Source of the DNA: Arcobacter aquimarinus
GTDB lineage: Bacteria; Campylobacterota; Campylobacteria; Campylobacterales; Arcobacteraceae
DNA: 64,000 nucleotides
Reading direction: 5' to 3'
Assembly: GCF_013177635.1 (NCBI RefSeq)
Contig: NZ_CP030944.1
Span: forward strand, 496,001-560,000
Part shown: positions 5,136 to 26,194 of the stretch, in pieces
Layout: each line of letters begins with the position of its first letter
Position numbering within the stretch: the stretch's first letter is position 1
Program-made: the position numbers and the translations under genes
Notes under the pieces: model-generated
The model's input: the letters and a program-made list of their open reading frames with translations, nothing else
Databases searched by the model: none
Told to the model about the DNA's origin: nothing

Positions 5136-6512
5136 TTATTTTTTGTAAAATGATAAATAAATAGTAGTTCCTATATTTTCAATACTTTCAATATTTATTC
5201 TTCCATAATTTATATCTATAATTTTTTTCATAATAGACATACCAAGTCCAGTTCCACCTGAATTTTTGTTTCTACTTTTGTCTGTTCTATAAAATTTCTC
5301 AAAAATTTTTGATTGTTCATCTTTGGGAATACCAATTCCAAAGTCTTGAATTGAAACAATTATCTCATCATTTTTTTCAAAAATATTCAATATTACTTTA
5401 GTATTTTTATGACTAAATTGAATTGCATTTTTTATTGCATTTTTTACGGCAATTTTTAAAAGATTTGGAAATCCTTTTATTTCAGCTGAATCATTAACTA
5501 ATAGTTCTAAAGTAACTTCATTGAGTTTTGCGAAGCCTTTTAGTTCACTAATTGATTCATCAACTAACTCATCTAAATAAAATATTTCTTCTTTTTCATA
5601 AATTAAATCTTTTTTATTTTTTGCTAAAAATAATAAATCATTTATTGTTTGTTCAATAATTGTTATTTCATTTAAAGAGCTATTTAATGCTTCTTTATAC
5701 TCTTCTATTGTTCTATCTTTTCTAAGCGCAATTTCGATTTCACCTCTAATAATTGTAAGTGGAGTTTTGAGTTCATGCGAAGCATCTGAACTAAATTGGG
5801 TAATTCTCTCAAAAGATTCTTCTAATCTTTCTAATAAATTATTTACTTCTATAATTAGTTGATTTATCTCATCTTTATTTTGTGTTGATTTTAATCTTGC
5901 TGACAAATCATTTGCGTTTATCTTCTTTAATTCTTCAAGTATATTTTCAATAGGAAGAAAAGATTTATATATTAAGAAATTTCCTCCAATAACTGCAAAT
6001 ATTAAAACTATTGGAAGAATAAAACTTAATATATATAAAATATTCTCTAAAGTTGAAGATAATATATCTTTTGTTGTAAGTACTTCAATAATTACTTTTT
6101 GTTTATTGTGAAAATTAATTTTTATTCTACTAACTAAGTAATCACTTTGTTCTTCAAATACAACTATCCCTTCTTTCAATCGATTTAAATTTTCATCTTT
6201 ATGTTCAATGTTTTGAGGAAAATTTGAAGTTTGAATGATAGGTTTTAATGTATTATTATCTAATATTCTAATAAATAATGGTTCAAAGTTATACTCTTTT
6301 TCTTCATCAAGTAAGGCATCTGTTATTTGAGTTTCTTCGAGTAAATCATCTGTCACATCAAGAATTATAACTTTTAATGTAGTTTGTAATTTATCTAAAG
6401 TAGAAATTTCAAGTGCCTTATAAAGTGAAAAAGAGAATATTCCTAAAATAATAGCTTGTATTAAAAAACTATAAATTAATAATTTTTTTTTGATAGATAA
6501 TTTATTCGTCAC
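5136..6512 (-). CDS. Membrane sensor histidine kinase
   Basis: A 458-residue kinase with an N-terminal membrane helix (about residues 9-28), a periplasmic sensor region of about 140 residues, a second membrane helix (about 160-183), a HAMP linker, a dimerisation domain with the phosphorylated His in SHELKTP (about residue 246), and an ATPase domain with N, G1 (DFGIGIP) and G2 (GTGLGMS) boxes. The order resembles CusS-type kinases, but the periplasmic part names no ligand. It overlaps the regulator gene by 11 bases and is the last gene of the operon that starts at 13.1 kb, so it probably controls that operon. Confidence 0.93.
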   Translation of the reverse strand: MTNKLSIKKKLLIYSFLIQAIILGIFSFSLYKALEISTLDKLQTTLKVIILDVTDDLLEETQITDALLDEEKEYNFEPLFIRILDNNTLKPIIQTSNFPQNIEHKDENLNRLKEGIVVFEEQSDYLVSRIKINFHNKQKVIIEVLTTKDILSSTLENILYILSFILPIVLIFAVIGGNFLIYKSFLPIENILEELKKINANDLSARLKSTQNKDEINQLIIEVNNLLERLEESFERITQFSSDASHELKTPLTIIRGEIEIALRKDRTIEEYKEALNSSLNEITIIEQTINDLLFLAKNKKDLIYEKEEIFYLDELVDESISELKGFAKLNEVTLELLVNDSAEIKGFPNLLKIAVKNAIKNAIQFSHKNTKVILNIFEKNDEIIVSIQDFGIGIPKDEQSKIFEKFYRTDKSRNKNSGGTGLGMSIMKKIIDINYGRINIESIENIGTTIYLSFYKK

Positions 6513-7173
6513 TTATTTTAAATCCTATTCCTCTAACTGTTTTTATAAGTTTCTTTTCAAAATTTTTATCTATTTTATTTCTTAATCTATAAATATAAAC
6601 ATTTACAATATTACTAATATTTGAATCTTCAAATGAAGATAATGCTTCATTTATTGTTGTTTCACTTAAAACTCTATTTTTATTTTTGATTAAATACTCA
6701 AGTAATGAAAACTCTTTTGCAGTTAGCGTTATATTCTCATCTGCTCTTTTTGCTGTTTTTTTTAGTAAATCAAGCTCCAAATCACCAATCGTTAGTTTTG
6801 TTTGTTCTGTAAAATTAGTTGTTCTTAGTTGCACTCTAATTCTTGCTAATAGTTCTGCAAATGAAAAAGGTTTTGCAAGATAATCATTTGCACCAATATC
6901 TAAGCCTTTGATTTTATCTTCTATAGAGTCTTTTGCTGTAAGCATTATTATTGGTGTTTGAATGTTGTTTTTTCTTAGAGTTTTACATACTTCTATCCCA
7001 TCTTTAATTGGAAGCATAATATCAAGTAGGATTAAATCATAGCTATGAACGCTAGCAAGATATAATCCTTCATCACCATTTGTTGAATAATCAACTATAT
7101 AACACTCTTCTTCAAGACCTTTTTTCAAAAAGTTTATGATTTTTAAATCATCTTCAATTATTAATATTTTCAT
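6502..7173 (-). CDS. OmpR-family response regulator
   Basis: A 223-residue two-domain regulator. The receiver has the acidic pair EDD (7-9), the phosphoacceptor Asp51 in LLDIMLP, the switch Thr in MLTAKD and the Lys of AKPFSF. The C-terminal winged helix (about 125-221) includes LTAKEFSLLEYL and the VYIYRLRNKID recognition region. It overlaps the kinase gene by 11 bases and the phosphoesterase gene by 4. OmpR-type regulators bind direct repeats about one helical turn apart; three such repeats lie upstream of this operon at 13136-13164, so it may control its own operon (inference). Confidence 0.93.
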   Translation of the reverse strand: MKILIIEDDLKIINFLKKGLEEECYIVDYSTNGDEGLYLASVHSYDLILLDIMLPIKDGIEVCKTLRKNNIQTPIIMLTAKDSIEDKIKGLDIGANDYLAKPFSFAELLARIRVQLRTTNFTEQTKLTIGDLELDLLKKTAKRADENITLTAKEFSLLEYLIKNKNRVLSETTINEALSSFEDSNISNIVNVYIYRLRNKIDKNFEKKLIKTVRGIGFKISDE

Positions 7174-7907
7174 AGTAATAATTCTACTCTTTTAGTAATT
7201 AATTTAATTAAAGTTATTTCTGCATCAGCTTTATATCTAAAATCAATTCCCCAATATCCTAATCCTTTATTTATATAAATGGCAGTATTTTTTTTATAAA
7301 AAAGTCCTGCTAAAAAAGGTTGTACAAGTTTTACAAGATAGTGAAAAGGATAGATTTGACCTCCGTGAGTATGTCCACATAAAAAAAGATTTGAGTTTGA
7401 ATTTAAGGCAATTTTATAATCTTTTGGTTGGTGTGAAATAAATATTGAAGGAGAATTATTTAAATGTTTTTCAATCTTTTTAATATCTCTTTTTATTCCA
7501 AAAAATTTTGAAAATCTATCAGGAAGACCTGCTATATGAATAATCTCATTTTTATAGATAAACTCTTTACATTCATTATCCATAAAAATAAAATTTGTAA
7601 GTTTTTTTTTTAAATCGTCAATTCCATAAAATAAGTCATGATTTCCACTTATGTAGTAAACAACTCCATTTATTTTATTTAAAATTTCAAGTTTTTCTTT
7701 GATGAATTTTACTTTGCAATCTATTATATCTCCAGTAATAACACAAATATCAAATGAAGTAGAATTACAAAAATTTATTAAATCATTTAGATGCTTTATT
7801 GAAGTTTTTTTATTTATGTGTAAGTCACTCAAATGAAGTATTTTAAATGAATCTAGTTTTTTGTTATCTACTAATATTTCAAGTTCATTGAATGGAAGAG
7901 AATTCAT
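7170..7907 (-). CDS. Metallophosphoesterase, YkuE-like
   Basis: A 245-residue calcineurin-like phosphoesterase. The five metal-binding blocks are visible in order: LSDLH (about residues 26-30), ITGDIID, SGNHD, SHQP and GHTHGGQ. The GHTHGGQIYPF ending and the later NKGLGYWGI fit the YkuE-like group, whose members act on phosphoesters at the cell envelope; the true substrate is unknown. No clear signal peptide is seen. It overlaps both neighbours by 4 bases (ATGA type), so translation is coupled to the thioredoxin-like gene upstream and the response regulator downstream. Confidence 0.88.
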   Translation of the reverse strand: MNSLPFNELEILVDNKKLDSFKILHLSDLHINKKTSIKHLNDLINFCNSTSFDICVITGDIIDCKVKFIKEKLEILNKINGVVYYISGNHDLFYGIDDLKKKLTNFIFMDNECKEFIYKNEIIHIAGLPDRFSKFFGIKRDIKKIEKHLNNSPSIFISHQPKDYKIALNSNSNLFLCGHTHGGQIYPFHYLVKLVQPFLAGLFYKKNTAIYINKGLGYWGIDFRYKADAEITLIKLITKRVELLL

Positions 7908-8359
7908 TTTAAAATCTCTTCCAATTCAAATATTGAATTTAAATATCTTATATTTTTTACAATACCATTTTCTATTGAATATACAGTTATTTTATTTTCT
8001 ACTTCTAAAAATTTCGCGCTTTTCTCATCGTAGATTAATAAAATTGAATATTTATAGTCTCTTAACTTTGGTAATGTAAACATTCTTGTAAATATATTTG
8101 GCCAACAAGAGATATTTGCAATAAATATTGCATTATTTCTTTCAAGAAAATCTTTCTCTTTTTTTGATAAAAAATCGTTTATACTATTTAAAGTCTCTTT
8201 TTCAAAAGTAATTACTATAGTACTTACATCACTTGTAATTGTATAAATTTTATCAAATTGGTCTGTTAAAGAAAAATTACTTATTTTATCATTCAACTTT
8301 AGTGGAGAACTATATACTAAAGTTGAAAGTATTGTTGATAATATAAGTTTTCTAAACAT
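7904..8359 (-). CDS. Exported thioredoxin-fold-like protein of unknown function
   Basis: A 151-residue protein with a signal peptide (about residues 1-18, ending near VYSSP). The mature part begins KLNDKISNFSLTDQFDKIYTI, which resembles the start of redoxin/TlpA-type proteins, and the alternation of strands and helices ending in a short helix fits a thioredoxin fold. It has no CxxC pair: the only Cys is in SCWPN near the middle, so a normal dithiol activity is unlikely. It sits between the YceI-like gene and the phosphoesterase in the same operon. The family assignment is tentative. Confidence 0.6.
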   Translation of the reverse strand: MFRKLILSTILSTLVYSSPLKLNDKISNFSLTDQFDKIYTITSDVSTIVITFEKETLNSINDFLSKKEKDFLERNNAIFIANISCWPNIFTRMFTLPKLRDYKYSILLIYDEKSAKFLEVENKITVYSIENGIVKNIRYLNSIFELEEILK

Positions 8360-8362
8360 AAT

Positions 8363-8884
8363 TTATCTTTTTAATTCAATATTGTAATTAATATCAACTT
8401 GGTTTCTAACTGTTAAAAAAAGTAATGTTGGTGGTTCTAAATTAAAATCAGTAAGATTAAAAGAAAAACCTCCAACCATAACAATTTGATTGTTTTGTTC
8501 ATTTATATCACTTTTTACAGTAATCTCTTTTTTTACACCATTTAATGAAATTACTCCATTAATATCATAATTTGTATCATTTTTTACAATATTTTTTATC
8601 GTAAAAGATATAACTTTATGTACTTCTGAATCTAAAAGTTTATACATATGTTCATCTCTATCTTTTTTTGAACTAACTAGTGATAGTGTTTCAAAAAATA
8701 CTTCTCCTTTTATTGACTCTATTTTGTCAGCTATTGTTAATAAACTTTTAATATGAGTTGTTTGAGGGTTGATTTCACTATCTCCAAAAACTTCTGTATG
8801 AGCTTTAATTTCACCCTTTACAATGCTTAAATCACTTGCAAATGCACCTAAGCTTAAAATTAAAAATAAAGCAACTTTATACAT
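8363..8884 (-). CDS. Periplasmic YceI-like lipid-binding protein
   Basis: A 173-residue secreted protein. The start was placed at 8884 because AAAGGAAG precedes that ATG and the signal peptide MYKVALFLILSLGAFA begins there; an upstream in-frame ATG (8944) would bury it. The mature part is beta-rich, with the ISFTIKNI and IKGEVFFETLSL strands and the closing GGFSFNLTDF, resembling YceI, a lipocalin-like fold known to hold isoprenoid-type lipids. Its start overlaps the membrane-protein gene by 8 bases. Its position next to an oxidase-like protein suggests a role with quinones or heme proteins, which is inference. Confidence 0.75.
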   Translation of the reverse strand: MYKVALFLILSLGAFASDLSIVKGEIKAHTEVFGDSEINPQTTHIKSLLTIADKIESIKGEVFFETLSLVSSKKDRDEHMYKLLDSEVHKVISFTIKNIVKNDTNYDINGVISLNGVKKEITVKSDINEQNNQIVMVGGFSFNLTDFNLEPPTLLFLTVRNQVDINYNIELKR

Positions 8885-9851
8885 ATTTAACTTCCTTTGT
8901 TTGATTTGATAAATAATCTTTAGTAATAACTCTAATAATTGCAACTAAAAGAGTTACTGGAACAAATAATATTAAATTTGATAGAGCAACAAATAGCCCA
9001 CCACCTGAAGCTAACCATCCAATAAATATCATATAAAGAGTAATAGTTTTAAAATCTTTTTTTCTAATTGATTGTAAAATTACTACGTTGTAATATGAAA
9101 TTACAAATGGGTAAATAAATGCTAAAATAAATCCCTCCCTTAAAAAATAAAATAGATATGAAAGTGCAAAAAGTGTTAGTATTAATAACTCTTTTTGATT
9201 TTTTTCAATATTAAAATATAAAGCACAAAATACTCCAATAATATGAAATAGTGCAATTTCCATTGTAAAGCCATCTCTCCAAATAGAAATTGTAGTATCT
9301 CTTGATAATGATTCAAAAAGTGCAGAATCTAAAAATACCCATAAAACCATAATTAAAAGAGAGTGAGAAGTTGTATTTGATTCTTTTTTATTTGGTAAAT
9401 TTGGCAAAAACAGTGTTGTAACTAAAGTAATTATTGTTAAGAAAATAGCAATAAATCCTCTATTTGAAACTTCATAATTGAATAAAAAAGTACCAACTAC
9501 ATAAGAGATACTAAGCGCTAATCCCAACTCTACTAAAGATGTTTTTTTAACTTCATTTATTATTAAAGGAGCCAAACTTCCAACTGCAATTCCTAAAATA
9601 AATAGTGTGATTAAATTAAAGTTTGGATATACAAAACTCATCATTAATTGAATTATTAAAAATATAAATATCTTATTTTTATTTTCAATATTAATATATG
9701 AAACTAATAATGAACCAATAACTCCTCCAATTGGAAGTGGAGCAATTAAAAATAAATCAGATGAAAAATATTCCACGATACCTGTTTGAGCTATTAGTAA
9801 ATAGTAACAAAGCTCACTTGCTATAAAAAGTATTAACATAAATCTTTGCAT
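8877..9851 (-). CDS. Polytopic membrane protein of unknown function
   Basis: A 324-residue, very hydrophobic protein with about ten predicted membrane helices and short loops. Two similar halves divided by a charged loop (LPNKKESN, about residue 155) give it the look of a small transporter of the MFS kind, but no signature motif could be confirmed. The ATG at 9851 follows an AAGGAG ribosome site. It overlaps the oxidase-like gene by 19 bases and the YceI-like gene by 8, so it belongs to the same coupled operon. Confidence 0.7.
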   Translation of the reverse strand: MQRFMLILFIASELCYYLLIAQTGIVEYFSSDLFLIAPLPIGGVIGSLLVSYINIENKNKIFIFLIIQLMMSFVYPNFNLITLFILGIAVGSLAPLIINEVKKTSLVELGLALSISYVVGTFLFNYEVSNRGFIAIFLTIITLVTTLFLPNLPNKKESNTTSHSLLIMVLWVFLDSALFESLSRDTTISIWRDGFTMEIALFHIIGVFCALYFNIEKNQKELLILTLFALSYLFYFLREGFILAFIYPFVISYYNVVILQSIRKKDFKTITLYMIFIGWLASGGGLFVALSNLILFVPVTLLVAIIRVITKDYLSNQTKEVKYV

Positions 9852-11398
9852 AATTTCTCCTTATTATAAAAAAAGATTAAATAAATAAACACAAATGATA
9901 AGTCAAATAGACAAATTATAAGTGCTTCAATTCCCAGTCTATTACTTGAATAAAGTGCAAAAAACATAGCACTTGCAAATACTCTAATTATTACTGTTAA
10001 AATTGTAAAATTAGGGTTTTTAAGAGCTAAAAAATGGATGATTCCAGTAAGGCTTACAAAAGTAAATACAACATATTCATATACTCCATTAAATGAGAAA
10101 CCAAATAACGGATAAGTAAAACTTGCAAGTAGGATTAAGAAAATTCCTCCTAAACCATCTGCACCAATTCCAGCTAAATTGTAAAGTTCAAGTTTTGAAT
10201 AATTTGTTCTAATTTTTATAAATGCAAATATAAAACCAAATGCAACAAATCCAAAAAGAGTTCTAAGAATCCATAATTTATCTGTTGGAATTGTGCTAAA
10301 TCCAGCTTGTGTAAATCCAGAAATAGATAACACTGTAAATATTCCTAAAATTCCTACTAGATAAAACTTTAAGAAGATTCCTTTATGTAACTCTTTTATG
10401 TGATTTATGAACATTGAAATTACCATGAAGAAAACTGCAATTCCCATAGCAACGTGAGCATGAGCAACTATTAAATCATTTCTATGAAATAACCATCTAA
10501 TTTCTGGAATAAAAAGAATATTTCCTTCAATATCAACAAAAAGAAAAGCTAAAATAGAAATTAATAAAGCTTTTTTTGCATGAATTTTGATATTTGAATC
10601 TTTATACCATCTGTATAGAAGAGGAACATAAAGTAGTGTTAAATATTGAGCAAACCACTCTTGATTGTAAGTTAATGGTTCAAAAAATATTCTATATAAA
10701 ACTGTTCCAAAATAAAATAGTGTAGGAATTATCCATAAGATATTCCATCTAGCTTTAAATTCATTTTCATTTAATAGTTTAATAATTAGATAATAAATAG
10801 GAATTAAAGCTAAACTCATTCCAAGTGTATTATCCCCATGAGGACCTGTAACTGTACTTTCTACTTGTCCAATTATTGGATTCATAAGAATTAAAAGTGT
10901 GATTGGAGCAATAATAACAACTCTAAGACAAACTTTTATCCAAAAAGGAAGTACTTTATATAGTTTGATAAATTTATATAAAGCAATAATATAAAATACC
11001 CCTGCAATTGCAAGTAAGAAATTTAATTCATAAGCAAAATCATAAAAAGCTAAACCTCTATTCTTACCAAGAAGAAGTGAAATAACCATAAATACTAAAA
11101 AAATGTACCAAATAATAGTATATAAATTTAAGTATCTAATTCCTTCATCGCAAACACCAACTTCTTTATTTATTAGTAAAAATGGTAAATATGAAAGCAT
11201 TAATGGAACAAATCCATAAAGCATTAAACTTATGTGAATAGAACGCATATTTACTGGATTTAAAGTTTCAGAATCAATTGAAAATCCTAATAAATTAATA
11301 GAATAGATTATTCCAAAAATTAATCCTAAAGCAAAAAATGCGATAGAGATTTTAAAATGATTAGAAATAAAATTTTCAAAATTAAATGATTTTTTCAT
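9833..11398 (-). CDS. Heme-copper-oxidase subunit I-like membrane protein without the usual CuB His pair
   Basis: A protein of about 521 residues with some 12-14 membrane helices. Features of oxidase/NO-reductase subunit I are visible: a His in RSIHISLMLYGF (helix 2, about residue 55), PHGDNTLGMSL (about 187) resembling the helix-6 region, and AHAHVAMG (His 313 and 315), matching the helix-10 heme ligands. The adjacent His-His pair that binds CuB in helix 7 is absent from the expected region. It may thus bind heme without being an oxidase. ATG 11398 was preferred over 11410, which has almost no room for a ribosome site; the choice is uncertain. It overlaps the ABC ATPase gene. Confidence 0.65.
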   Translation of the reverse strand: MKKSFNFENFISNHFKISIAFFALGLIFGIIYSINLLGFSIDSETLNPVNMRSIHISLMLYGFVPLMLSYLPFLLINKEVGVCDEGIRYLNLYTIIWYIFLVFMVISLLLGKNRGLAFYDFAYELNFLLAIAGVFYIIALYKFIKLYKVLPFWIKVCLRVVIIAPITLLILMNPIIGQVESTVTGPHGDNTLGMSLALIPIYYLIIKLLNENEFKARWNILWIIPTLFYFGTVLYRIFFEPLTYNQEWFAQYLTLLYVPLLYRWYKDSNIKIHAKKALLISILAFLFVDIEGNILFIPEIRWLFHRNDLIVAHAHVAMGIAVFFMVISMFINHIKELHKGIFLKFYLVGILGIFTVLSISGFTQAGFSTIPTDKLWILRTLFGFVAFGFIFAFIKIRTNYSKLELYNLAGIGADGLGGIFLILLASFTYPLFGFSFNGVYEYVVFTFVSLTGIIHFLALKNPNFTILTVIIRVFASAMFFALYSSNRLGIEALIICLFDLSFVFIYLIFFYNKEKLCKDLC

Positions 11399-12017
11399 CG
11401 ATTTTTCCATCCTTTAGCTCGTAAATTTTATTAGCCATTTTGGCTAAGTTTTTATCATGAGTTGCAACAATAATTGTTGTTCCTTTTTTTGAAAGTTTTT
11501 TAAAAAGCTTAAATACTTTTAGTGAGTTATTTGAATCTAAATTTCCTGTTGGTTCATCAGCAAAAATCACTTTTGGATTGTTGATTAATGCTCTAGCAAT
11601 TGCTACTCTTTGTCTTTGTCCTCCTGAGATTTCATTTGGATATTTGTCTATTAAATTTTCAATTCCAAGAGTTGATAAAAGATTTTTTATCTCTTCATCT
11701 TTCACTCTTTTATTTGCTAATTTGATATTTTCTTTTACTGTTAAATAATTTATTAAATAGTGGAATTGAAAAATAAAACCAATATTTTCTTTTCTAAATT
11801 TATCAATATTTAAAATATCTGTATAATTTAAATTATTGAAATATACATCTCCGCTAGTTGGTTTAAGAAGTGTTGATAAGATTGATAAAAGTGTTGATTT
11901 TCCACTTCCACTCTCTCCAATAAAAGAGATAAATTCACCACTGTTAATATTTAGTGAGATGTCATCAATAGCTTTATCATTGTTGTAATAGTGAGTTAAA
12001 TTTTTTATTTTAATCAT
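11382..12017 (-). CDS. ABC transporter ATP-binding protein, LolD/MacB type
   Basis: A 211-residue ATPase with Walker A (GESGSGKSTL, about residues 34-43), Q-loop, signature SGGQRQRVAIARAL (about 131-144), Walker B (VIFADEPTGNLD) and the switch His in VATHDKN. The TGNLDS segment is characteristic of the LolD/MacB/FtsE group, which pairs with permeases of the type encoded just upstream. It overlaps that permease gene by 4 bases. The pair could move or release an envelope substrate by mechanotransmission rather than import a solute; the substrate is not known. Confidence 0.93.
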   Translation of the reverse strand: MIKIKNLTHYYNNDKAIDDISLNINSGEFISFIGESGSGKSTLLSILSTLLKPTSGDVYFNNLNYTDILNIDKFRKENIGFIFQFHYLINYLTVKENIKLANKRVKDEEIKNLLSTLGIENLIDKYPNEISGGQRQRVAIARALINNPKVIFADEPTGNLDSNNSLKVFKLFKKLSKKGTTIIVATHDKNLAKMANKIYELKDGKIDEKII

Positions 12018-13096
12018 ATTTTATTTCCTTGAATTAACTCAATTGGGTCAATTTTTGAAGCATTAATCGCAGGAATTATAGAGCCGATAATTGCCATAGA
12101 AATTGAAGTTATAAATATATACAACGCTAAAGTTGTAGATATTTCTCCATTTACATATCCTTGTAAACTTTGTACATTTTTTATTAGGTACAAAACAATA
12201 TTTGAGATAAAAAATGCACAAATAAAACTTAAAAATCCTAAGATAATACTTTCAAATATAATTGAATATACGATTTCTAAAGTAGAAATTCCAAGAGCTC
12301 TTTTTATCCCAAACTCAGCTCTTCTTTGATTGATTGTTATTGTCATCAAACTTACAATTCCTAAAAGACCCATACCAAAAGCAATTGCTGAAATTACATT
12401 TGATGAGGTTTTTATAATTTTAAATTGATTGTAGTTATCCACAAAATTTTGTGTTGATTTCACATCTATTTCATTTGATAACTCTTTTATATTTTCGATA
12501 ATTTCATTGCTATTTGAATCAATAGTTGTATTTACTAAAATCATTGAAGCAGATTTATTAAAAATAGTTCCAGCATCTTTAATAGTAAGAACAACACCTC
12601 CATTTTCAAATCCAATTTCGCTTTTGAATACACCAGATACTAGAAAAGTTTTATTTGCTATTTGAATCTGTTTTTTGTTGTTTAATTGTTCATAAATAGA
12701 ATTTCCAATAATTACTTCATTTTCTTTTGGATAATTACCTAAAATTAATTCATATTTTTTAAATCTATTTTTTGTTGAACCATAAATTGCAACTATTGGA
12801 AGGTTTTCAACAGGACTTGCACCTACTATTAATGCTGAAGTCTCTTGTATTCCGGCAAACTTATTTATTTTTTCAATTAAGTCAATATTTACGTTTGAGA
12901 AAAAAGTATCAGAAATTTTTGCTTGAGTAATTATAATATCTCCGTCACTTTTTAAAAGTGTAGAGTACATAGAGATTACTCCATTTGAAATAGAACTAAT
13001 TAAAAAGATTGACACAATTGAAAAAATAAGGCTTAAAAAAATTAGTAGAGTTTTTAGTTTATTTGCAATTAGTGCTTTTAATGCGTATGAAATCAA
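12014..13096 (-). CDS. ABC transporter permease, MacB/FtsX type
   Basis: A 360-residue permease with the MacB/LolC plan: one N-terminal membrane helix (about residues 13-36), a large periplasmic domain (about 40-225), then three helices at the C-terminus, with an NQRRAEFGIKRALG coupling segment between them. The start is TTG at 13096, with AAGGAT a few bases upstream; no in-frame ATG fits better. It is the first gene of the operon running to the histidine kinase at 5.1 kb. Direct repeats for a response regulator lie 40-68 bases upstream of the start. Confidence 0.9.
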   Translation of the reverse strand: MISYALKALIANKLKTLLIFLSLIFSIVSIFLISSISNGVISMYSTLLKSDGDIIITQAKISDTFFSNVNIDLIEKINKFAGIQETSALIVGASPVENLPIVAIYGSTKNRFKKYELILGNYPKENEVIIGNSIYEQLNNKKQIQIANKTFLVSGVFKSEIGFENGGVVLTIKDAGTIFNKSASMILVNTTIDSNSNEIIENIKELSNEIDVKSTQNFVDNYNQFKIIKTSSNVISAIAFGMGLLGIVSLMTITINQRRAEFGIKRALGISTLEIVYSIIFESIILGFLSFICAFFISNIVLYLIKNVQSLQGYVNGEISTTLALYIFITSISMAIIGSIIPAINASKIDPIELIQGNKI

Positions 13097-13135
13097 AAGT
13101 TATCCTTCCATTTTTTTGAAAGTTTAACTTTTGAA

Positions 13136-13164
13136 TATGAATCAGTTATGAATTAATTATGAAT
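13136..13164 (-). promoter_or_regulatory. Three TATGAAT direct repeats, 11-bp period (predicted OmpR-type regulator site)
   Basis: Exact copies of TATGAAT (plus-strand reading) start at 13136, 13147 and 13158, each 11 bases from the next. This helical-turn spacing is typical of OmpR/PhoB-family sites. The site lies 40-68 bases upstream of the TTG start of the ABC permease, whose operon ends with an OmpR-family regulator and its kinase. A plausible -10 (TAAACT, complement of about 13119-13124) lies on the gene side of the repeats. Binding by that regulator is inferred. Confidence 0.7.
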
Positions 13165-13289
13165 TTTTGTTCATATTTGTTTTAAATATTTTGAATTTTT
13201 TAAAAAATAATTATTTTTGTATAAATAAAGTGTTTATTTTTTGTAAGTTAGATAAAATACAAATAAAATTAGAGATAAAAGAGAAAAAG

Positions 13290-24175: not shown

Positions 24176-26194
24176 ATGGTAAAAAAGCCTAAAAATAACA
24201 ATCAGAATAATAACCAGAATTTTAACAACAATAATAACAATAACAACAATAATAATTTTTTTAATAATAATCCATTGTTGATATTTGTAATTTTTTCAAT
24301 TGTTACAATTTTTGCATTCAAAGCAATTTTTCCAGAAGAACAAATGGGAAATGCAACAAACTCAAATATGCAAGCATTTGGTCAAACATCAAATAAAACA
24401 ATTGCATATTCAGATTTAAAAAGAATGATTAGTTCAGGTAAAATTGAATATGTTGGAATTGGGAATACTCAAATTAGAGCTATTTCAAAAGGTGATAGTG
24501 GACAAGTTATAACATACACTGCAAGAAGAGTTGTTCCTGATGAAACACTTATTCCTGAGTTAGAAAAAAATGGTATAGGATATGGTGGAATCAATGAAGA
24601 AAATATCTTAGCTGATATTTTATTTGGTTGGGTTTTACCTATTTTTATATTTTTCGCTATTTGGATGTTTATTGCTAAAAGAATGCAAAAATCAATGGGT
24701 GGTGGTTCAGGAGGAATTCTTGGAATTGGTTCATCTAAGAAGATGATTAATTCTGAAAAACCAAATGTAAAATTTGATGATATGGCTGGAAATAAAGAAG
24801 CGAAAGAAGAAGTTCAAGAAGTTGTTGATTTTTTAAAATCTCCTGATAGGTATGTAAGACTTGGTGCTCAAATTCCAAAAGGTGTATTATTAGTAGGACC
24901 TCCTGGAACTGGTAAAACTTTATTAGCAAAAGCAGTTGCTGGAGAAGCTGATGTTGAGTTTTTATCAGTTTCAGGTTCTGCATTTATTGAAATGTTTGTT
25001 GGAGTAGGTGCAAGTAGAGTTAGAGATTTATTTGAACAAGCTAAAAAAGTAGCACCTGCAATTATTTTTATTGATGAAATTGATGCAATTGGTAAAAGTA
25101 GAGCAAGTGGTGGTCCAATGGGTGGAAATGATGAAAGAGAACAAACATTAAATCAACTTTTAGCCGAAATGGATGGATTCTCAACTGAACATGCTCCGGT
25201 TATAGTATTAGCTGCAACAAATAGACCAGAAGTTCTTGACCCAGCACTTTTAAGACCAGGAAGATTTGATAGACAAGTTTTAGTTGATAAACCTGATTAT
25301 GAAGGTAGAATTGAAATTTTAAATGTTCATATCAAAGATGTAAAATTAGCAAAAAATGTGGATTTAAAAGAAATTGCAAAAATGACAGCAGGACTTGCTG
25401 GTGCAGATTTAGCAAATATTATAAATGAAGCTGCACTTTTAGCAGGAAGAGCTAATAAAGAAGAAGTTGAACCAAGTGATTTTAAAGAAGCAGTTGAAAG
25501 ACAAATTGCTGGATTAGAAAAAAAATCAAGAAGAATTTCTCCAAAAGAGAGAAAAATTGTTGCTTATCACGAATCAGGACATGCATTAATTGCTGAGATT
25601 ACAAAAGGTGCAAATAAAGTAAATAAAGTATCTATTGTTCCAAGAGGTTTAGCTGCTCTTGGATATACATTAAATACTCCAGAAGAAAATAAATATTTAA
25701 TGCAAAAACATGAGTTATTAGCTGAAGTTGATGTTTTACTTGGTGGACGTGCAGCTGAGCAAGTATTTATTGGTGAAATTTCTACAGGTGCTGGAAATGA
25801 CCTTGAAAGAGCAACTGGAATTATCAAATCAATGGCTACTATTTATGGTATGAGTGATATTGCTGGATTAATGGTACTTGAAAGAAGAACTAATCAATTC
25901 TTAGGTGGACAAACACAAAAAGATTTCTCTGATGCAATGGCAAAAGATTTAGATGACCATGTAAAAAAAGTATTAAATGAAAGATATGAAATTGTTTTAC
26001 AAGCATTAAGAGATAATAGTGCTGCTATTGAGCAAATGACTGCTGAATTATTAGAAATAGAAGTAATTACAGGCGAGAGAGTAAGAGAAATCATAAAAGA
26101 AAATGGTGGAAAAGTTTTTGAAGATGAAGATTTACATACAGAAGCTTTAAAAGACACAGAAACTGAAGAAAAAAAAGAAACTACTGAGGAATAA
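24176..26194 (+). CDS. ftsH: ATP-dependent zinc metalloprotease FtsH
   Basis: A 672-residue membrane AAA+ protease that degrades misfolded membrane proteins and regulators. Two membrane helices (about 33-48 and 142-162) flank a periplasmic part. The AAA module shows Walker A (GPPGTGKT, about 241-248), Walker B (IIFIDEIDAIG), the SRH region and the pore loop; the protease has HESGH with catalytic His and Glu (about 464-468). The N-terminus before helix 1 is a run of Asn with Gln and Phe, encoded by AAT/AAC triplets, unlike typical FtsH. An AAGGAG site lies before the ATG. A terminator follows. Confidence 0.97.
   Translation: MVKKPKNNNQNNNQNFNNNNNNNNNNNFFNNNPLLIFVIFSIVTIFAFKAIFPEEQMGNATNSNMQAFGQTSNKTIAYSDLKRMISSGKIEYVGIGNTQIRAISKGDSGQVITYTARRVVPDETLIPELEKNGIGYGGINEENILADILFGWVLPIFIFFAIWMFIAKRMQKSMGGGSGGILGIGSSKKMINSEKPNVKFDDMAGNKEAKEEVQEVVDFLKSPDRYVRLGAQIPKGVLLVGPPGTGKTLLAKAVAGEADVEFLSVSGSAFIEMFVGVGASRVRDLFEQAKKVAPAIIFIDEIDAIGKSRASGGPMGGNDEREQTLNQLLAEMDGFSTEHAPVIVLAATNRPEVLDPALLRPGRFDRQVLVDKPDYEGRIEILNVHIKDVKLAKNVDLKEIAKMTAGLAGADLANIINEAALLAGRANKEEVEPSDFKEAVERQIAGLEKKSRRISPKERKIVAYHESGHALIAEITKGANKVNKVSIVPRGLAALGYTLNTPEENKYLMQKHELLAEVDVLLGGRAAEQVFIGEISTGAGNDLERATGIIKSMATIYGMSDIAGLMVLERRTNQFLGGQTQKDFSDAMAKDLDDHVKKVLNERYEIVLQALRDNSAAIEQMTAELLEIEVITGERVREIIKENGGKVFEDEDLHTEALKDTETEEKKETTEE

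Follow-up and report, generated by a model that had tools for sequence, protein, structure and literature searches.

A conserved array of TTCATA half-sites upstream of an ABC transporter/COX1-like/two-component operon is a predicted operator for the operon's own OmpR-family regulator

Within the OmpR/PhoB family of regulators, PhoB and PmrA take over the contact normally made by the -35 element when bound to tandem half-sites. In the pho box recognised by PhoB, direct repeats with an 11-bp period replace the -35 element ~10 bp upstream of the -10 (i.e. class II), and the operon encoding the regulator and kinase is autoregulated. An inverted half-site is unusual in PmrA or PhoB sites and typical of CusR/CopR-like sites. 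Several systems of this family have been described in detail. At the PmrA box (i.e. TTTAAG-N5-TTTAAG), an OmpR-family regulator activates eptA/pmrC (PMC10927774). The Pseudomonas regulators CusR, CopR and CzcR share an inverted site, ATTCATnnATGTAAT (PMC11195947). For PCE respiration in Sulfurospirillum, EMSA showed an OmpR-family regulator to bind a promoter in which CTATA units with six-nucleotide gaps (the RR2 element) overlap the -35 (PMC7755780). Among the titles, abstracts and open papers searched, no description was found of the two-component system considered here.

The array under study lies in the window (i.e. the whole 64 kb stretch of DNA that was analysed) between the start of an FtsX-type permease gene (TTG, 13096, minus strand) and the divergent inositol monophosphatase gene suhB (13290, plus strand). 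The window belongs to a 2.52 Mb chromosome of the Campylobacterota (G000:C1:496001-560000), judged to be Arcobacter-like by gene content and relatives. Three exact copies of TATGAAT occur on the plus strand with a period of 11 bp (13136-13142, 13147-13153 and 13158-13164), as described in a first-pass annotation of this DNA. The span given there, 13119-13164, was correct for the repeats (13136-13164) and loose at its start, positions 13119-13135 being promoter and spacer. Its picture of a site made of direct repeats was sound and incomplete, having missed an inverted half-site (13170-13175), the -10 (13121-13126) and the reading of the repeats as TTCATA toward the operon. On the operon strand the sequence runs TATGAA CAAAAA TTCATA ATTAA TTCATA ACTGA TTCATA TTCAAAAGT TAAACT, followed by the ribosome-binding site and the TTG. 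There are thus four half-sites, the first inverted and the other three direct in 11-bp steps. Half-sites 1 and 2 form a 6-6-6 palindrome (genome positions 509158-509175), and in the window sequence the permease TTG start is ~40 bp downstream of the element that ends in the -10. The features are as follows.

13136-13175, minus strand: predicted operator array, TATGAA-N6-TTCATA-N5-TTCATA-N5-TTCATA on the operon strand; matches the consensus at 24/24 positions and is kept in 35/35 operons
13170-13175, minus strand: half-site 1, inverted (TATGAA; TTCATA on the plus strand); columns 1-6 hardly vary among the 35 operons
13158-13163, minus strand: half-site 2 (TTCATA), the third TATGAAT of the plus strand; from the sequence and the 35-operon alignment
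13147-13152, minus strand: half-site 3 (TTCATA), the second TATGAAT of the plus strand; from the sequence and the 35-operon alignment
13136-13141, minus strand: half-site 4 (TTCATA), the first TATGAAT of the plus strand, 9 bp before the -10; from the sequence and the 35-operon alignment
13121-13126, minus strand: predicted -10, TAAACT (TANANT in nearly all relatives); columns 50, 51 and 55 invariant, column 53 in 32/35
13103-13109, minus strand: ribosome-binding site, GGAAGGA, read in the sequence; AAGG/AGGA block kept in relatives

When the region was scanned with simple models for sigma-70 promoters and terminators, all matches were at chance level. As the region is ~73% A+T, the array might be ascribed to chance or to an AT-rich simple repeat. 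The likelihood of this is negligible: a non-trivial 7-mer occurring three times at any period of 8-15 was absent from every one of 60 dinucleotide-preserving shuffles of the window (0/60), bearing out the initial judgement that chance was unlikely, and across many genera the half-sites are invariant and the spacers variable. Under the same 7-mer-triplet criterion the real window yielded the TATGAAT array and an AACAATA run (period 9, 24227); this second exact triplet (24227-24252) is possibly coding or a simple repeat. A genome search for further TATGAAT tandems, as proposed in the first-pass annotation, revealed no second place: at least two exact units at 11-bp spacing occur once in the 2.52 Mb genome, at this array, which is also the only exact three-unit TTCAT array. 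When the same genome was searched with a loose three-unit pattern, 52 matches were obtained, as compared to 19 for a reversed-pattern control; almost all of the 52 had two mismatches, and no second target was evident. Only this array is a strong site in its own genome, where the operon is the only clear target.

Orthologous operons were collected from relatives, 35 being of the window's type. The earlier reading had been staked on the repeats being kept wherever the operon is kept, and the array was present in 35/35 of these operons at -62 to -71 bp from the permease start; shuffles rarely matched. Scores across the 35 operons were 16-18/18 for the direct half-sites and 21-24/24 for the full pattern. 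Half-site columns averaged 1.50 bits of information and those of the -10 averaged 1.05, as compared to 0.44 for the spacers and 0.14 for the upstream 40 bp. All 35 operons had 9 bp between the array and a TA...T hexamer, and most had the TATGAA-N6-TTCATA inverted pair. The regulator and kinase were present in 33/33 operons whose contig spans the operon end, the other two contigs stopping earlier. One of the 35 belongs to a genome of another family (G145, family f20; L100, G145:C7:41500-51573), has a permease 69% identical to that of the window and keeps the array; it was probably acquired by horizontal transfer. The array is intergenic, with suhB starting ~115 bp downstream of it on the plus strand, and could in principle serve this divergent gene and not the operon. 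The upstream neighbour gene, however, varies among relatives, with suhB adjoining the operon in a minority only, and many relatives without suhB at this place keep the array, its distances to the permease start and to the -10 being fixed. A role for suhB is accordingly highly improbable and, because the upstream genes vary between relatives, the array is assigned to the operon.

The content of this operon was as first annotated, namely a permease, an ATPase, a COX1-like protein, four further genes, a response regulator and a histidine kinase.

12014-13096, minus strand: FtsX/MacB-type ABC permease, first gene, TTG start (Pfam PF02687, PF12704)
11382-12017, minus strand: ABC ATPase of LolD/MacB type (PF00005; LolD and MacB models below cut-offs)
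9833-11410, minus strand: COX1-like membrane protein (PF00115 below cut-off; conserved His residues)
8877-9851, minus strand: membrane protein with no family match (no Pfam or NCBIfam match; syntenic)
8363-8944, minus strand: YceI-like periplasmic protein (PF04264)
7904-8359, minus strand: small protein with a signal-like N-terminus (no Pfam match; syntenic in most relatives)
7170-7907, minus strand: metallophosphoesterase, YaeI/LpxG-like (PF00149; YaeI and LpxG models below cut-offs)
6502-7173, minus strand: OmpR-family response regulator, the proposed ligand of the array (Response_reg and Trans_reg_C; best NCBIfam model TIGR01387, below cut-off)
5136-6512, minus strand: sensor histidine kinase (HisKA, HATPase_c, weak HAMP)

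Searches with Pfam and NCBIfam found no metal efflux or copper oxidase families in the operon. The COX1-like protein had no PDB sequence match; His59, His191, His309, His317 and His319 are present in 68/68 orthologues and His459 in 67/68. It is possibly an unrecognised relative of the heme-copper oxidases that works with the ABC transporter.

The best NCBIfam models for the regulator were TIGR01387 (CztR/SilR/CopR), HprR and CusR, and by sequence it was placed closest to the CusR/CopR/HprR group, with E. coli-type BasR/PmrA among the nearest solved full-length regulators. Two specific identities were rejected, i.e. a metal-type CusR orthologue, as the TIGR01387 cut-off was missed (256.3 bits against 279.2), and a PmrA orthologue, as that of NF007928 was missed (185.9 bits against 330). 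In a maximum-likelihood tree the regulators of box-bearing genomes formed one clade (support 95/87), and the recognition helix, of type SNIVNVYIYRLRNKID, was near-identical across them.

The distribution of the array was compared with that of the regulator. Among the genus members checked, those without the operon had a best regulator match of 34-39%, and their strongest box had an E value of 0.0017-0.5 as compared to 1e-9 to 1e-13 in members with the operon. Permease operons of other families often lack the regulator and kinase, other genes then preceding the permease, and ~18/19 of these regulator-free operons had no array above the shuffled expectation. One regulator-free operon, L136, scores above its shuffles, inside coding sequence. 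Two half-sites and no clear regulator orthologue were found in G065 (L067). In genomes of genus g39 of family f20, which we take to be Sulfurospirillum-like, a regulator orthologue (56-58% identity) and a kinase adjoin eptA, and both eptA and the permease operon carry TTCATN-N5-TTCATN-N9-TAAAAT, the 9-bp gap to the -10 being identical to that of window-type promoters. At L110, L066 and other f20 loci, the permease operons retain a histidine kinase gene of ~230 aa, apparently shortened, and no regulator; the regulator orthologue is found at another locus with eptA and a kinase of its own. A genome of family f16 (G166) has a regulator orthologue of 57% identity and, with a model built only from window-type permease-operon promoters, boxes were found before its own gene (23.2 bits) and before a sulfatase-family gene (37.4 bits); its regulator-free permease operon had no box. 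The 37-bit box is at L217:2732-2787, and the 642-aa sulfatase-family protein behind it resembles LTA synthase/phosphoglycerol transferase. Because nearly all regulator-free operons lack the array and relocated orthologues have a box nearby, the array is judged to follow the operon's OmpR-family regulator. Self-control by this regulator, as initially suggested, is strongly indicated by the co-inheritance and the single clade.

Another transcription factor (e.g. a paralogous OmpR-family regulator) might nevertheless use the array, the operon regulator being a passenger. The recognition helix of a paralogue in G032, SNLVKVYIYRLRNKID, is in large part the same, and there is a weaker box upstream of this paralogue's operon, yet the box and the orthologous regulator co-occur and relocate together, the box-bearing regulators are one clade, and genomes with other paralogues but without this regulator have no strong box. 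Use of the array by such a factor was thus considered distinctly unlikely, and the operon's own regulator is preferred as the ligand.

Further sites in relatives were sought with a sequence-only promoter model and by direct inspection. In G014, G018, G021, G041, G055, G223, G244, G393 and G399, a copy of the box is found upstream of eptA, of cptA or of a sulfatase-eptA pair. The box stands before eptA in G014 and G018, and also in G041 and G055, where this gene is downstream of the kinase; other copies lie upstream of the cptA-type gene of G041, of a gene resembling it in G393 and of the sulfatase-eptA pair of G399. By NCBIfam, the cptA-type protein of G041 is CptA (622.6 bits, cut-off 404), and the eptA protein is named as phosphoethanolamine-lipid A transferase, with 627.8 bits against a cut-off of 500. 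Some of the eptA copies have a TTMAT-like half-site. The exact TATGAA-N6-TTCATA palindrome occurred within 250 bp of eptA in 7/31 upstream regions with the regulator, from seven genomes representing about three lineages, and in 0/12 without it. With 35 sites counted across 14 genomes, the background of this palindrome is ~1 per Mb, which gives an expectation of ~0.01 in the 31 intervals. Scores of eptA upstream regions did not differ significantly between regulator-bearing and regulator-free genomes (Mann-Whitney p = 0.39). In the window's own genome no recognisable box was found upstream of eptA or of the preceding sulfatase gene, and eptA was rejected as a second target there. Because these two genes lack the box, the wider regulon appears to be lineage-dependent. 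A sulfatase-like protein precedes eptA in both the window's genome (L249:1325) and G399 (L250:544). At L218, in a genome without the permease operon (G035), a more distant regulator (51%) and a kinase adjoin eptA with TTTCATTTTCATTTCAT-type repeats; this is read as a separate PmrCAB-like arrangement.

Three features of an OmpR/PhoB-type operator were observed, i.e. direct repeats of ~6 bp at 11 bp, a fixed site by the -10 where a -35 would otherwise lie, and a co-inherited winged-helix regulator. The array is very likely a class II activator site of PhoB/PmrA type, through which the regulator would control its own operon and, in some relatives, probably also phosphoethanolamine transferases. 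We infer the binding, and take activation as its sign from promoter geometry only. Phosphorylated regulator molecules would line up on the half-sites along a single face of the DNA, replace the -35 element and recruit RNA polymerase (i.e. class II activation), so that transcription of the ABC/COX1-like/YceI/phosphoesterase/regulator/kinase operon would rise. As the activated operon includes the regulator and kinase, the system would amplify itself. Phosphoethanolamine transferases are probably also switched on by this regulator in several relatives, which makes a response to envelope stress or a modification of lipid A the probable output. The same binding could have the opposite effect, with the regulator acting as a repressor or dual switch that blocks polymerase and is relieved by activation or inactivation of the kinase. 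The array is only 9 bp from the -10, and CopR produces opposite outcomes from one palindrome, pcoA2 being repressed and cusRS activated (PMC11195947). However, no conserved -35 element was seen in the spacers of the 35-operon alignment, as an activator-dependent promoter predicts, and the PhoB/PmrA layout fits activation; repression or dual switching was considered rather unlikely.

For a two-component system of Arcobacter-like bacteria, the array provides a precise model of the predicted binding site and a regulon that can be tested. It also connects a membrane operon that is uncharacterised with genes that modify the envelope with phosphoethanolamine, suggesting a purpose for this operon. 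Operons that have lost the regulator provide a natural comparison, as the box stays with the regulator.

The array resembles the PmrA box (Acinetobacter pmrC/naxD, Salmonella and Klebsiella) in having hexamer direct repeats with a 5-bp gap and an 11-bp period, whereas the half-site is TTCATA and not of the YTTAAK type, with three direct copies and one inverted. In contrast to PmrAB, the main conserved target is the ABC/COX1-like/regulator operon, eptA being boxed in some lineages only. Like the pho box, the array has 11-bp direct repeats close to the -10; it differs in sequence and signal, and the pho box is without the inverted element. An inverted pair, formed here by half-sites 1 and 2, and a narrow regulon are shared with the CusR/CopR/CzcR and HprR boxes, but relative to the CusR/CopR/CzcR sites the array has extra direct repeats and a different spacing of the inverted pair, and its operon has no copper/silver efflux genes. 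The RR2 element is from the same phylum and has the 11-bp period; its half-site, regulator and target genes differ, and the accessible part of the RR2 account gives no inverted half-site (PMC7755780). A more speculative proposal, put forward tentatively, is that the operator is composite: binding would be nucleated at a CusR-like inverted pair, and PmrA-like direct repeats would extend the regulator toward the promoter. Across the Campylobacterota, this regulator clade would join the uncharacterised ABC/COX1-like membrane system to the modification of lipid A with phosphoethanolamine. The array itself is a new and well-supported example of a familiar type of regulatory element, with a slightly unusual composite layout.
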